This document shows positions 26,584-62,083 of a stretch of DNA of 64,000 bases, one piece after another. A program made the position numbers and the translations under genes. The stretch is from positions 1-64,000 of the forward strand of contig NZ_QMIG01000019.1 in NCBI RefSeq assembly GCF_003287285.1. The letters are read 5' to 3'. The notes under the pieces are model-generated. The model was not told the origin of the DNA. It was given only the letters and a program-made list of their open reading frames with translations, and did not search any database. Position 1 is the stretch's first letter; every line of letters begins with the position of its first letter. The DNA is from Phytoactinopolyspora halophila. GTDB taxonomy: Bacteria > Actinomycetota > Actinomycetes > Jiangellales > Jiangellaceae.

Positions 26584-26740
26584 CGGTGGTTGATTCCGTT
26601 GACGATCGTCGCGGGTTGAACGTGGGCTCGGGAGACGGACGCCTGCCGCTCGGGTGGATCTACGAGACGGTCAGCATGCTGCTCGAATGGAGCCTGAGAG
26701 GTTACCTGCCGCCCGAACGGACACGGTGATCCATGATCGA

Positions 26741-26829
26741 TGTGGAGTTCCGGTTACCCGTGCGTGGCGTGTGGCATACAGGTCGCTATAGCGACCTATT
26801 CTCCGCACACAAGGCGCGGAAACTCCACA
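26741..26829. repeat. nested inverted repeat with 16-bp palindrome
   Basis: GGTCGCTATAGCGACC at 26781-26796 is a perfect palindrome. Outside it, TGTGGAGTTCCG (26741-26752) faces CGGAAACTCCACA (26817-26829), complementary apart from one extra A. The outer arms are not equidistant from the centre (7 bases offset). The arrangement resembles a decayed miniature element or the site of one. Confidence 0.5.
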
Positions 26830-26885
26830 CCCGATCATGGCCCGCATGCGAGGTGACGTCCCTCGCGATCGATACGCTCGATGCC

Positions 26886-26952
26886 CACGTGATCGTTGAC
26901 GATAGTGCATATGTCCATGGAGGCGATCGTCGACGATCAGCAAAGCCTGGCC
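26886..26952. repeat. 67-nt hairpin element, copy A
   Basis: This stretch aligns without gaps to 60284-60350: 47 of the first 55 bases match. TGATCGTTGACGAT (26890-26903) pairs with ATCGTCGACGATCA (26926-26939), with one wobble, around a 22-base loop that contains CATATGTCCATG. The loop is as conserved as the arms, so it is a dispersed family rather than a simple terminator. Confidence 0.75.
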
Positions 26953-26977
26953 ATTTCAGATGCACTCATTTAGTTGA

Positions 26978-28163
26978 CGATCATCCCCGCGTGCGCAGGG
27001 AACACGAATGTTTCCCTGATGGGTTCGTGCGGTCCTCATGGATCATCCCCGCGTGCGCGGGGAACACCACCCAACCCAAGGCAGAGCACACGGAAGAACC
27101 GGATCATCCCCGCGTGCGCGGGGAACACCATGTCGACGTTCAGGTGATTGAGGATGGCCCAGGATCATCCCCGCGTGCGCGGGGAACACGCCGTAGGCGT
27201 CGCTCCAGTCTGCGACGTCGACGGATCATCCCCGCGTGCGCGGGGAACACTTGTTGTTATTGAATTCAACGTCGCCTGAACCAGGATCATCCCCGCGTGC
27301 GCGGGGAACACTCGGGCATTGTGGCGTCCTCCATCGCAGAGGGGGGATCATCCCCGCGTGCGCGGGGAACACCGAACCAGAACCTGAGAGGCCATTTCTT
27401 CCTGAGGATCATCCCCGCGTGCGCGGGGAACACATTATGCCAACAATCGAAAATCCCTATCAGGCGGGATCATCCCCGCGTGCGCGGGGAACACGCGGTG
27501 TCGTGCTTCTGATAGTTGGTGTAGTCCGGATCATCCCCGCGTGCGCGGGGAACACATATACGCGCCGTTGGGTTCGGTCAGAGCAATGGGATCATCCCCG
27601 CGTGCGCGGGGAACACAGATTGGTGGACGTTCCCAGGGTCAGCGGGTGTGGATCATCCCCGCGTGCGCGGGGAACACTTCCGTCGCGGGGTTCGATGATG
27701 TCGGGCGAGAGGATCATCCCCGCGTGCGCGGGGAACACGGTCGCGCTGCGCGACCCGGACACCGGGAACTAGGATCATCCCCGCGTGCGCGGGGAACACA
27801 GATCACCGGCCGGCCCCAGCTGACCCAACCGCGGATCATCCCCGCGTGCGCGGGGAACACTGCGCCACCGAGTTCTCGGACGGGTCGTAACAGGGATCAT
27901 CCCCGCGTGCGCGGGGAACACGATCACGTAGTGGGGAGCCTGGCACGTTCTCAAGGATCATCCCCGCGTGCGCGGGGAACACGCATCGTCCTGGATAACC
28001 AGGTGATAGTCCGGGATCATCCCCGCGTGCGCGGGGAACACGAACAAATCAGTTTCTTCTTCTAAATCGAATTGGGATCATCCCCGCGTGCGCGGGGAAC
28101 ACAAATTTCCGCTGGCACAAACCTGACGCCATATCGGATCATCCCCGCGTGCGCGGGGAACAC
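26978..28163 (-). CRISPR. type I-E CRISPR array, 20 repeats, no adjacent cas genes
   Basis: Twenty repeats of 28 bases, starting GGATCATCCCC on the plus strand and ending CGGGGAACAC, with the CCCCGCG/CGCGGGG stem of type I-E repeats. Starts are 26978 (degenerate), 27040, 27101, then every 61 bases to 27955, then 28014, 28075 and 28136. Spacers are 33 bases except the first (34) and that at 27983-28013 (31). In the standard reading orientation the repeat is GTGTTCCCCGCG... on the minus strand. The first repeat (26978-27005) has two changes (C for G at its first position and an A in the stem), marking the old, leader-distal end, so the leader should be on the right, at 28164 onward. No cas1, cas2, cas3 or cascade gene is present in the window. 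Confidence 0.97.
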
Positions 28164-28400
28164 CCTTAATGACCAGCTAGTTTAGCGCGTCGGTGGCCGG
28201 TTTTCAGTCACTTGCGGCTGATCATTGTCGTGGAGATGGAAGCTGGATCCGACCTGCGCATCGCATTCTCGTCGTGCTCGGCTCGCGCACCGTGTATCGG
28301 GTCGGCTGTGCTTTCTGATGGCCCCCGGGCACATGGTCGGTGTTTGCCGGTAGGGTGGTTCGTGATGCCGGTTGGCTCGGAGTCGTTGCCGATCCAGGGT
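28164..28400 (-). promoter_or_regulatory. CRISPR leader candidate
   Basis: The sequence right of the last repeat is AT-richer than its surroundings for about 60 bases (CCTTAATGACCAGCTAGTTTAGCG on the plus strand, given here in part). On the minus strand TAAACT (complement of 28179-28184) could be a -10. The remainder to 28400 contains no gene that I can support. Confidence 0.45.
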
Positions 28401-28405
28401 AGGTT

Positions 28406-28435
28406 TTGACCGGCCGGCGTCTGGACGAGTAAGCT
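28406..28435 (+). promoter_or_regulatory. promoter candidate for rplM-rpsI
   Basis: TTGACC (28406-28411), 18 bases, then TAAGCT (28430-28435), about 100 bases before rplM. It is a good housekeeping-type match and leaves a leader of about 90 bases, in which L13 autoregulation is known in other bacteria. Confidence 0.55.
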
Positions 28436-28531
28436 AGGGCTTCGTTGTGTGCGCCAGCGGTGACCTCGTGATGGGTGACGGCGCGCCACAGACCTGAACC
28501 ATCCCGACGGACGAAGTGAAGGCCTACGACC

Positions 28532-57927: not shown

Positions 57928-59172
57928 TTATGAGAGTGGCGTGGCGGCGATGACGGTGGCGCGTCCGGCGACCCGAGTGACGACGAGCGTGGCCGACGCG
58001 GTACCGTCCGGGCGCAGCGTCCGGCGGAGCTGATCCGGCTCCACATCGACACCGCGTTTCTTGATCGTCAATGTCCCGATGCCGCGTTCACGCACGTATC
58101 GACGCAGCTTCTTCACGTCGTAGGGAAGAACGTCGGTGATTTCGAAGCCACGGGCGAACGGGGTCGGCGCGAGAGTGTCGCTGCTGATATAAGCGATCGA
58201 CGGGTCGAGCAACCAGCCACCCGTCAGCGCCGCCACGGCCGTCACCAGACCGGATCGGATGACGGCGCCGTCGGGCTCGTAGAGAAAGCGACCGGGTGGC
58301 CCGATCTCGGCGGTTCCCGGGTCGTCGGCGTCGGTGAGCGCGTTCACGCTCCGTGAGCTCGGGCCGGGGCAGAAGGCCGGGTCGGCTTCCCGCTTGCACG
58401 GGTCGGCTTCACGGTTCGACACGAGGATCGTCGCCCGGCACCGCACCCCGGGCTCGGCGAGCACGCCCGACCAGAGCGCGGCCTCCTTGACGTCGCCGTC
58501 GTCCGAGATCCACTCGGCCTCCACGCCGGCCGGGATCCGATCACGGGGAATGCCGGGCGCGACCTTGACGCAGGAATCCTCCGCGAGCAGGTCCAGAACG
58601 AACGGCCACGAGGGTTGGTAGGCGTCTACGTCGAAGCTGCGCCCGCGCGCCGTGCGTCGTGACGGATCACAGGTCACGACGGTGAACGGTGTACGGTCCA
58701 CGGCCGTGGCATCAGCCGTGAGGACGCGGGCACGTGCGCCGAGGCCGAGAGCCTCGATGTTCAGGCGTGCGATGTCCGCTGTGAGCTCATCCGCTTCGAT
58801 CCCGGTGACATCGAGACCGGCACGGGCAAGCGAGATGAGATCGCCACCGATCCCACAGCACAGGTCGAGGGCGGGACCGGTCGCGCTGGCGATCCGTGCT
58901 GCCCGGTGAGTGGCGACGCTGGCCCGGGTGGCCTGTTCGTAGCCGTCCACGGTGAAGAACATCCGGGCGGCGTCGTCGGGCGCGAATTTCGCGACCGCGC
59001 GGCTGCGCAGCCGCGCCTGGGTCAGCGCGGCGGCGACCAGCTCGCCGTCATGGTGTCGCCGAAGGCGCGTGCCCAGCGCGAATTCGTTCTCGATCGCGTA
59101 CGAGCGGGTCGCTTCCTCGAGTAACGCCCGACCGTCCGGCGACGTCAACCTCCGCAGTGTCTCGACGTTCAC
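57928..59172 (-). CDS. class I SAM methyltransferase with THUMP-like domain
   Basis: A 414-residue protein. N-terminal region to about 90 (LRRLTSPDGRALLEEA) resembles a helical module. The SAM-binding loop is DLCCGIGGDLISLARAGLDVTGIEADE (about 103-130) and the motif IV-like TCDPSRRTARGRSFD is at about 170. The C-terminal 110 residues (GGWLLDPSIAYISSDTLAPTPFARGFEITDVLPYDVKKLRRYVRERGIGTLTIKKRGV) match the THUMP-like domain of actinobacterial 'THUMP-like domain-containing' proteins. RNA is a likely substrate. The gene is separated from the aldo/keto reductase by 152 bases, and they diverge. Confidence 0.88.
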   Translation of the reverse strand: MNVETLRRLTSPDGRALLEEATRSYAIENEFALGTRLRRHHDGELVAAALTQARLRSRAVAKFAPDDAARMFFTVDGYEQATRASVATHRAARIASATGPALDLCCGIGGDLISLARAGLDVTGIEADELTADIARLNIEALGLGARARVLTADATAVDRTPFTVVTCDPSRRTARGRSFDVDAYQPSWPFVLDLLAEDSCVKVAPGIPRDRIPAGVEAEWISDDGDVKEAALWSGVLAEPGVRCRATILVSNREADPCKREADPAFCPGPSSRSVNALTDADDPGTAEIGPPGRFLYEPDGAVIRSGLVTAVAALTGGWLLDPSIAYISSDTLAPTPFARGFEITDVLPYDVKKLRRYVRERGIGTLTIKKRGVDVEPDQLRRTLRPDGTASATLVVTRVAGRATVIAATPLS

Positions 59173-59324
59173 CGTCTCACCCTGGCAGACGGCGGGGTCC
59201 GGGCCGCACGGGCGGCCAGTGGCACTCGTCGACCGGAGCCATCAGAGTCTTGACGTGGAGTGCACTCCAGCCACGAAACTTGGCGACGGCGACACGTTGG
59301 GTTGCGACAGAGGAGAGGGCTGCC

Positions 59325-60290
59325 ATGCAGACACGTACGTTCGGCCGGCTCGGCCACGTCAGCGCGTTGACGCTGGGAGGGGGCGGGCTCGGCCAGGTCT
59401 GGGGGCCAACGAGCAGGGATGAAGCGGTCTCTACAGTGCGGGCGGCCGTTGACGCCGGCATCGATTTCGTCGACGTCGCGCCCGGCTACGGCGACGGCGA
59501 GGCCGAGCGCGTGGTGGGTGAGGCGTTCGCCGGAGTGATACCCGACGGCGTTCGGGTCTCGACCAAGTCCCACGTGGGGCGCGTCGATCCGGAGAATGTA
59601 CGTGCCGTTCTCGAGAACTCGCTCGACGACAGCCTGGCACGGATGCGGGTGCAGCACGTTGACCTGTTCATCCTGCACGGACACATCGTCGAGCGCGATG
59701 ATCAAGGGAACGAGGGGCGCACTCCAGCCGGTCTGTTCCGGGAGGCGGTGCGGCCGGCGTTTGACGATCTGGTGCGCCGGGGCCGCATCGGGGCATGGGG
59801 GATCACCGCAGTGGACATACCCGAGACCGTCATCCGCGTGCTCGACGAGGAACCGGTGCCCGCGGCTGCCCAGTGCGTGACCAATCCGTTGGATTCCCCG
59901 GGTGATCTCATGTGGTCCGAGGAGGACCCGCGGCCGCGGGACATCATCGCCACAGCACGCCGCCGCGATATCGGTGTCATGGGCATACGTGCCGTTCAGG
60001 CCGGGGCATTGACGGACGGACCGGATAGGGAATTGCCAGCCCAGCACCCGACGCAGCGCGACTTCCGGCGCGCCGAGCCGTTACGCGAACTCGCTCGCGA
60101 AGCCGGCGTCTCGATCGCTGCCCTGGCGCACCGCTATGCCCTGTCGATGGACGGCGTGGACACGGTTGTCCTGGGGGTGAAGAACCGTGCCGAGCTGCGA
60201 GAGTGCCTCGAAGCGGAGGCCGCTGGCCCGCTAGATTCCGATCTCGTCGAGGCGATCGAAACGCGGTTGCCCCGGCGCGCAGCCACGTGA
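59325..60290 (+). CDS. aldo/keto reductase
   Basis: A 321-residue NADPH-dependent aldo/keto reductase. ATG 59325 is preceded by AGGAGAGGG. The fold starts FGRLGHVSALTLGGGGLG, then DAGIDFVDVAPGYGDGEAERVVGEA (catalytic Asp/Tyr) with STKSHVG giving Lys, and LFILHG for the His. The C-terminus VDTVVLGVKNRAELRECL is the usual cofactor-binding stretch. The stop codon falls at the left end of the 67-nt element (copy B). Confidence 0.92.
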   Translation: MQTRTFGRLGHVSALTLGGGGLGQVWGPTSRDEAVSTVRAAVDAGIDFVDVAPGYGDGEAERVVGEAFAGVIPDGVRVSTKSHVGRVDPENVRAVLENSLDDSLARMRVQHVDLFILHGHIVERDDQGNEGRTPAGLFREAVRPAFDDLVRRGRIGAWGITAVDIPETVIRVLDEEPVPAAAQCVTNPLDSPGDLMWSEEDPRPRDIIATARRRDIGVMGIRAVQAGALTDGPDRELPAQHPTQRDFRRAEPLRELAREAGVSIAALAHRYALSMDGVDTVVLGVKNRAELRECLEAEAAGPLDSDLVEAIETRLPRRAAT

Positions 60291-60350
60291 TCGTCGTCGA
60301 CGGTGCACATGTCCATGTAGGTGATCGTTGACGATCAGGAGGGTCTGGTC
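60284..60350. repeat. 67-nt hairpin element, copy B
   Basis: Aligned without gaps to 26886-26952, 47 of the first 55 bases match, including the loop CATGTCCATG. TGATCGTC (60288-60295) pairs with the far GACGATCA. The element begins within the last codons of the aldo/keto reductase gene and provides its stop. It ends 27 bases before the stop of the convergent kinase gene, so it could be the terminator for both. Confidence 0.75.
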
Positions 60351-60376: not shown

Positions 60377-62083
60377 TCAATCTTCTAGCGGCCGGAGAAC
60401 GGAGAGCGCCCGTTCACCGCGACGGCGATCGATCTCGCCGTCCTCGATCCACTCCTCGATCTCCTCGACCAGGTCCTCGGCCTCATCCGCCTGCTTCTCC
60501 GAGTTCTTCGCTTTCAGTATCTCGCGCAGATCGGACAGCAGGTCGTCCGCGTCGTCACCCCAGTCCCTGGTGGTTACGGCGATCTCGCCGTACAGGTCGA
60601 GGGCTTCGTCTAGTGCCGGATCGGAGGGCCGGCTGACCTCTGTGAGCACGGCGACGACGGTTTGCCCGGTGCGGGCATCGAGTTCGTCGTCGGCCATCCA
60701 CGTGGCCACCTTCTCGACGAGTTTCTGGGCCTGTTCCGCGCGCTTGCGCCCGTCGCGTTGCTCGTAGAGCTTCTCGACCTGGTTGACCAGGTCCTCGGCC
60801 TTGTCGCCGTGTGCCTGGGGGTTGCTGGCCAGCATCGTCATCAGCTCGTCGAGGGTCGCCGGCACGGCCGGGCTGTCGTCGGGCTGGGGAGAGCCCGTCT
60901 CGTCGCCGCCATCCCCATCCGGTTCCTCCGACGCGGCATCGGTGACCGGTTCCGTATCGTCCTCCCCGCCTTGCCCGGGTTCCGGTCCGGAACCATCGGC
61001 GGCGGCATCCTGCGCCGAGGCGCCGGGCTCCCCACCGGAGCCGTCATCACCGAGCAGGAAGATCCCGGTGACCAGCGCGGCGATGCCGGCTGCCGACGCC
61101 ACGGCGAGCCATATCCGCTGGGCACGTGGCCGGACGCGGCTCGAGATCTGCTGGCTCGACGCCTGCTGGTTCGGGTGGGCTGCCGGTGACGCTGCTGCAG
61201 AGATGCTGAGCACCCGCGTGGACTCGTTGCGTTCCGCGGGTTCCGATGGAGGCGGCGGTGGCGGTGCCGTCGCGACCGGATTGTCCAGGGCCCGGCGCAT
61301 GGCCTCGGCGTCGTCGAAACGGTCGGCCGGATCCTTGGCCAGAGCCCGCTCTACCACGGTGGCGAGCCATGCCGGTGTTTCAGGTGCTGCCGTGGTGAGC
61401 GACGGCACCGGATCGTTCTGATGGGCGAGCGCTTCGGCGAGCGGAGTGTCGGCGGTGAACGGCGCGTCCCCGGCGAGACATTGATAAATGACCACACCTA
61501 GGGAATAGATGTCGCTGGCCGGTGTGGCGGGCTGACCCAGTGCCTGCTCTGGTGCCAGGTACCGTGGAGTGCCCAGGAGCTGGCCAGTACCGGTGAGACC
61601 GGTGGTGGTCTCGGCCAGTGCCTTGGCGACGCCGAAGTCGACGAGTTTCGCCTCGCCGGTCTCCGGAAGCAGGATGTTAGAGGGTTTGACGTCACGATGA
61701 ACGAGACCGTGTTGATGAGCGGCGTGCAGTCCGGCGAGCACGGCGTCAGCGATGGTGATGGTTTCGTCGCGCGGAATCCGCTGCTCGGCCTGCAGCCGAT
61801 CGGCCAGGCTGCGACCCTGTACGAGCTCCATGACGATGAACGGTTTGCCCTCGGATTCGCCAGCGTCGAACACGGTCACGGTGTTCGGGTGGTGCATGCC
61901 CGCGGCTGTCCGGGCCTCGCGCAGCAGCCGCTCGCGGCTGGTGGGATCGGAGGCGAGCGTGTCGTGGATCAGTTTGACCGCTACCCGCCGTCCGAGCATG
62001 TGGTCATATGCGGCGACGACTTGAGCCATGCCGCCCGTGCCCAGCGTTTCGCCGAGCTCGTACCGGTCAGCTAGTACAGCCAT
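60377..62083 (-). CDS. PknB-like receptor Ser/Thr kinase
   Basis: A 568-residue protein. The kinase domain is at 8-265: GTGGMAQVV loop, Lys37, HRDVKPSN with Asp131, DFG with Asp149, and GTPRYLAPEQ. A Pro-rich stretch with PPPPPP (about 274-279) leads to the membrane helix (about 324-345). The outside part (350-568) is first acidic and disordered, then helical and coiled-coil-like (about 430-560: EDLVNQVEKLYEQRDGRKRAEQAQ... and DLLSDLREILKAKNSEKQADEAEDLVEEIEEW). There are no PASTA repeats. It diverges from groES; the PP2C phosphatase at 32106 may oppose it. Confidence 0.92.
   Translation of the reverse strand: MAVLADRYELGETLGTGGMAQVVAAYDHMLGRRVAVKLIHDTLASDPTSRERLLREARTAAGMHHPNTVTVFDAGESEGKPFIVMELVQGRSLADRLQAEQRIPRDETITIADAVLAGLHAAHQHGLVHRDVKPSNILLPETGEAKLVDFGVAKALAETTTGLTGTGQLLGTPRYLAPEQALGQPATPASDIYSLGVVIYQCLAGDAPFTADTPLAEALAHQNDPVPSLTTAAPETPAWLATVVERALAKDPADRFDDAEAMRRALDNPVATAPPPPPPSEPAERNESTRVLSISAAASPAAHPNQQASSQQISSRVRPRAQRIWLAVASAAGIAALVTGIFLLGDDGSGGEPGASAQDAAADGSGPEPGQGGEDDTEPVTDAASEEPDGDGGDETGSPQPDDSPAVPATLDELMTMLASNPQAHGDKAEDLVNQVEKLYEQRDGRKRAEQAQKLVEKVATWMADDELDARTGQTVVAVLTEVSRPSDPALDEALDLYGEIAVTTRDWGDDADDLLSDLREILKAKNSEKQADEAEDLVEEIEEWIEDGEIDRRRGERALSVLRPLED

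Follow-up and report, generated by a model that had tools for sequence, protein, structure and literature searches.

A dispersed REP-like palindrome family of the Jiangellaceae and its possible link to AbiEi-nuclease genes

The window, by which we mean the whole 64,000-nt stretch of Phytoactinopolyspora halophila DNA that was analyzed, carries two copies of a 67-nt element and raises the question of what this element is and what could have dispersed it. A sequence-only reading had described a hairpin and offered three explanations: a REP/MITE-like element mobilized in trans, a small structured RNA, or a protein-binding site. Aligned without gaps, the two copies (Table 1) agree at 47 of their first 55 bases and at 54 of all 67. 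As that reading stated, TGATCGT/ACGATCA arms are present in both, one copy lies beside a CRISPR array and the other supplies the stop codon of an aldo/keto reductase gene. The array begins about 27 nt past copy 1, with its first repeat near 26979, and the TGA at 60288-60290 is both the reductase stop and the first codon of the palindrome of copy 2. The segment CATxTGTCCATG, taken for a loop as conserved as the stem, is indeed so conserved within the window's subfamily, because of recent common descent, but it is actually the palindromic center of a longer, 50-nt imperfect palindrome.

Table 1. Positions in the window of the two element copies and the features beside them
Feature	Position	Strand	Remarks
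Element copy 1	26886..26952	+	Core palindrome 26890-26939; leader side of the type I-E-like CRISPR array
Element copy 2	60284..60350	+	Core palindrome 60288-60337; aldo/keto reductase and protein kinase genes converge on it
Aldo/keto reductase ORF	59157..60290	+	From the ORF list; product name as given by the sequence-only reading
Serine/threonine protein kinase-like ORF	60377..62083	-	Convergent, on the far side of copy 2; kinase motifs in the translation
Type I-E-like CRISPR array	26979..28060 (end approximate)	+	Repeat GGATCATCCCCGCGTGCGCGGGGAACAC; repeat-encoded ORFs

The genome to which the window belongs is a draft Jiangellaceae assembly of 5.04 Mb in 77 contigs, 98.9% complete. Searched with plain DNA, it shows the element at 17 sites with E < 1e-5; a profile built from 17 copies detects 27 strong copies at E < 1e-8. 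These numbers are far beyond chance, and the further copies by which the element was to be checked do exist. Roughly, the subfamily consensus reads CCCACGTGATCGTTGACGATCGTGCACATGTCCATGTCGGCGATCGTTGACGATCAGCAA. It forms an imperfect palindrome of 50 nt, next to which short stretches are also conserved, and each outer arm (TGATCGT-TG-ACGATCA) is palindromic in itself. The subfamily copies are intergenic; where both neighbors could be called, 9 lie between convergent, 16 between tandem and 2 between divergent genes, and they show no preferred orientation relative to those genes (++ 8, -- 8). The start of one window-type copy (L014:1410-1545) is at most about 15 nt away from where a tRNA-Met gene ends. 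Another type I-E-like CRISPR array (L018/L193; G000 C37, near 24367) has a leader nearly identical to window positions 26777-27005. When the two leaders (L001 and L018) are compared, the element seems to have been deleted in L018 between two GTTGACGAT repeats; L018 was also considered as an empty insertion site, but it retains the 5' flank and the left half of the element, which makes deletion likelier.

The window's subfamily belongs to a much wider population that pervades the Jiangellaceae, a family of soil actinobacteria. Among 84,980 named genomes, the two arms, with the gap between them left free, matched 104 stretches, mostly in Jiangella, Phytoactinopolyspora and Haloactinopolyspora, and nearly all of them exactly 50 nt long. 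The parent family is a palindrome of 50-60 nt; a structural model built from the relatives' copies has matches in each of the 20 good Jiangellaceae genomes and, outside the family, in 7 genomes among 296 sampled from the class. Both window copies match this model over its full length (26885-26944, E 5.8e-5, and 60283-60342, E 1.5e-4). The structural signal is visible only once relatives are added to the window copies: neither of these, by itself, folds clearly better than its shuffled versions, at z -1.2 and +0.2, and within the window's genome just 1 of the 13 stem pairs of the subfamily covaries. Across 56 copies of the family, by contrast, compensatory stem changes occupy 168 two-sided cells, where shuffled controls give 69 and slid controls no more than 59, and five columns of the inner stem, which the search pattern left unconstrained, are 63-80% Watson-Crick where 31-46% is expected. 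The covariation check proposed for the stem therefore comes out negative within this genome and strongly positive across the Jiangellaceae; palindromicity is maintained by compensatory change in the family and not within the window subfamily. At one orthologous junction shared by two genera (L089, L182), and at another shared by two Jiangella species (L102, L112), the palindrome is found in both genomes with compensatory differences. A 59-nt sister palindrome with the same TGATCATCGGCGA arms occurs in Geodermatophilaceae and in one Frankiales bin; the Geodermatophilaceae sisters (L094, L107, L134, L138, L140, L168 and others) lie mostly between convergent genes, and the queries used found no AbiEi gene in their 8-kb loci. 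Half of the palindrome also recurs in a distinct multi-copy repeat of Jiangella (GTGGACAGCGATGATCATCAACGATCGCCTACATCA...; L065, L067, L070, L072, L087), with nearly 28 such half-matches in G009.

REP sequences are usually mobilized by Y1/RAYT transposases, and RAYTs are the partners of those REPs for which one is known. No Y1_Tnp domain (PF01797) was detected in any of 22 Jiangellaceae genomes, that of the window included, while control genomes were positive; RAYT mobilization was accordingly rejected, and this is not a REP-RAYT system. An Rfam search with the element gave no match, which disposes of a known structured RNA family, and this together with the indifferent orientation leaves the small structured RNA that had been suggested without support. 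Among the proposed readings the REP/MITE-like element fares best, because the copies are dispersed, intergenic and palindromic, form species-specific subtypes and are biased toward gene 3' ends; its mobilization in trans lacks the RAYT, and we infer the movement itself.

An all-against-all comparison of the flanks of the palindrome brought out one recurrent gene. Its product has an AbiEi_4 domain (3e-8) and is recognized as AbiEi by PADLOC (1.7e-25), and PF13338 is found in 28 of 29 aligned proteins. The C-terminal region gives weak DUF559 matches in 22 of the 29 homologs (best E 0.0005, short of the curated cut-off) and a match to the solved Vsr-like structure 3hrl (E 2.4e-4); E199, D230 and E241 are invariant in the alignment. 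An AlphaFold model was too poor to use (pLDDT 41). The gene thus appears to encode an AbiEi DNA-binding/antitoxin body fused to a predicted Vsr/DUF559-like, nuclease-type domain, the nuclease assignment being based on the weak profile matches and the conserved acidic residues. Every Jiangella and Phytoactinopolyspora genome searched contains one to several close homologs (59-80% identity); H. alba has many palindromes, and its AbiEi homologs are all distant. One AbiEi copy (L165:6346-7251) has lost the conserved RVELDG stretch and is therefore probably inactive.

In 19 of 26 loci of close homologs in Jiangella and Phytoactinopolyspora, the AbiEi gene has a palindrome on both sides: one at or near the stop codon, its own TGA often being the stop, and the other 54-189 bp before the start codon. 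With about 75 palindromes per genome, we estimate that a given gene would be so bracketed by chance about once in two thousand, and none of 155 control genes was (one AbiEi gene initially included in this set was excluded). A locus common to J. asiatica and G013 carries the palindrome-gene-palindrome unit in opposite orientations, while the same locus in J. aurantiaca (L152) has a single palindrome and no gene, with a rearranged left flank. The genes next to the AbiEi-nuclease look ordinary at the several loci read, and no AbiEii toxin was noticed there by reading. Bracketing is not a rule for all AbiEi genes and was rejected as such: of the distant homologs in the family, only about 30% identical, 1 of 20 is bracketed, as are 4 of about 24 called across the class. 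Since 19 of those 20 are unbracketed, it characterizes particular AbiEi lineages. In this assembly, the 1.5 kb around each strong window-type copy contains no AbiEi gene, and a direct AbiEi partner for the window subtype was thus not found near its copies. Searches of open-licence papers found no report linking AbiEi or DUF559 genes to dispersed palindromes.

Other AbiEi genes have palindromes of their own. On contig 59 of the window's genome, a different AbiEi gene is bracketed by a second, unrelated palindrome, AACCGACAT-N22-ATGTCGGTT, which occurs in 22 exact copies in that genome, these two included, while the reversed pattern, used as a control, has none; of 14 sites examined, 7 lie between convergent genes. 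Unrelated palindromes likewise accompany AbiEi genes in other actinobacterial families (L297, L311 and, less clearly, L301), and a further bracketed gene is found in G012 (L365). In 200 kb each, the palindromes of two other families had one clear extra copy in G048 and none in G067. In another Jiangellaceae genome, an AbiEi gene that looks broken and is flanked on both sides by a palindrome of another kind (L290; G002 C9:489500-494000) lies in the interval from ABC-F to rplM, which corresponds to the window interval 26584-28531 containing copy 1 and the CRISPR array. In distant homologs (L359, L361, L368, L286) the GTCACCTGATC...GATCAGGTGAC palindromes are confined to one side of the gene, as a tandem pair in L359 and L361, and look like AbiEi operators.

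The palindromes and the gene also vary together. Different genes have palindromes with different inner parts, yet the two copies flanking one gene agree, the mean distance being 0.121 within such pairs and 0.366 between genes (0/10000 permutations), and palindrome distance tracks protein distance (Mantel r about 0.40; 0/5000 and 0.0006). Solo copies, which far outnumber AbiEi-nuclease genes, resemble the flanking copies of their own genome: 28 of 58 have such a copy as their nearest, with 9 expected, and the mean distance is 0.207 against 0.328 permuted (0/5000), though these matching tests leave in the shared ancestry among copies of one genome, and common descent contributes. The same signs of coupling have been reported for REPs and RAYTs (PMC2817692).

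The explanation that we favor, and consider reasonably probable, is that the window sites are REP-like copies of a Jiangellaceae-wide palindrome family, and that the AbiEi-nuclease recognizes these palindromes and may propagate them in trans. The window subfamily would have expanded in this genome from the wider family. The AbiEi part of the protein would bind the palindrome and the nuclease part would nick or cut there; repair from another copy, or strand transfer, would then spread or homogenize palindromes in trans. A hairpin at a gene end might be tolerated or even kept because it gives convergent genes a stop codon and, between them, a 3'-end structure. This explanation draws on the dispersal and palindromic constraint of the copies, the missing RAYT, the bracketing, and the agreement of flanking copies with each other and of solo copies with those of their genome. 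Counting against it are the window-type copies with no AbiEi gene nearby, the many palindromes of H. alba beside distant AbiEi homologs only, the rarity of bracketing among distant AbiEi genes, and the large excess of solo copies over genes.

Where the copies lie bears on what else they could be. With genes called by an ad hoc codon model for which the window served as training sequence, 67 Jiangellaceae copies fall between convergent genes in 30 cases, tandem genes in 31 and divergent genes in 6, while 350 control intergenic regions from the same loci divide into 63, 186 and 101; the copies are intergenic and enriched between convergent genes. Of the 91 gene 3' ends next to a copy, about 31 terminate at the TGA of the palindrome itself. 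The most serious rival, which we nonetheless think unlikely, is that the palindromes do not move and are instead bound by AbiEi-type regulators, as operators or as sites across the chromosome, their copies having arisen by selection and gene conversion. AbiEi proteins do bind inverted repeats of 23 bp that precede their own gene (PMC7319586), and since the linked family behaves in this way, the protein-binding site proposed earlier is compatible with the data; the upstream palindrome at 54-189 bp from the AbiEi start, and the retention of palindromes at a junction orthologous across genera with compensatory differences (L089/L182), would also be in keeping with operators. The second copy at the AbiEi stop codon is harder to accommodate, the preference of solo copies for convergent ends and their avoidance of divergent promoters (30 versus 6 of 67) would be odd for operators, and the species-specific expansion suggests copying. 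That the palindromes are instead bidirectional terminators or mRNA 3'-end stabilizers, kept alike by gene conversion and only incidentally associated with AbiEi, draws on the excess of convergent neighbors (30/67 against 63/350) and on the stop codons supplied; we find it improbable, for the outer TGATCAT, identical across genera, is superfluous for a terminator, the copies that were read have no T-run after the hairpin, and AbiEi genes are bracketed far above the control level of 0/155. Equally improbable is that an unrelated transposase moves the palindromes as MITE-like elements, with AbiEi genes as passengers. In favor of this, the elements are short, palindromic and dispersed, and no autonomous partner carrying the window subtype was found in this assembly; against it, AbiEi is the sole gene type observed repeatedly to share a matched palindrome pair, in several actinobacterial families and with unrelated palindromes, and, on incidental inspection, no transposon with matching ends was encountered.

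If the AbiEi-nuclease does recognize and spread the Jiangellaceae palindromes, the link may represent a previously undescribed route by which short repeats spread or are maintained in bacterial genomes. A broader suggestion, which we put forward tentatively and find not quite so probable, is that AbiEi-nuclease fusions constitute a non-RAYT class of palindrome mobilizers with lineage-specific cognate palindromes, and that the fusions gave rise, independently in several actinobacterial lineages, to the REP-like populations described. This assembly has no gene linked to the window subtype, which could be an orphan or a relic; no partner having been found, the gene that spread its 27 copies has perhaps been lost, is missing from the draft, or acts at a distance. 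Here is a whole bacterial family with REP-like repeats and no RAYT, in which the linked gene has been filed as an antitoxin or defense protein. Confirmation would give these AbiEi genes a testable function, would indicate that REP-like populations can arise with an enzyme unrelated to RAYT, and would mean that AbiEi matches counted as defense genes may be repeat-associated nucleases.

Among known systems, the closest likeness is to REP/RAYT/REPIN (PMC2817692, PMC3116915), where there are also extragenic palindromes in tens of copies with compensatory changes, and a dedicated gene between two copies that changes together with them; here, however, Y1 transposases are absent from all 22 genomes, the gene between the palindromes encodes AbiEi fused to a nuclease-like domain, and the palindrome core is fixed at 50 nt. 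With AbiE type IV toxin-antitoxin systems (S. agalactiae AbiEi, M. tuberculosis Rv2827c; PMC7319586, PMC3985639) the linked gene shares the AbiEi N-terminal domain and body and the inverted repeats upstream; it differs in its additional C-terminal Vsr/DUF559-like domain, in the lack of a noticed AbiEii toxin gene beside it at the loci read, and in having the palindrome at both ends of the gene and in dozens of copies elsewhere. MITEs (PMC10969869) are similarly short, non-coding, inverted-repeat and dispersed, but for the palindromes described here neither a parent IS nor a target-site duplication was encountered.
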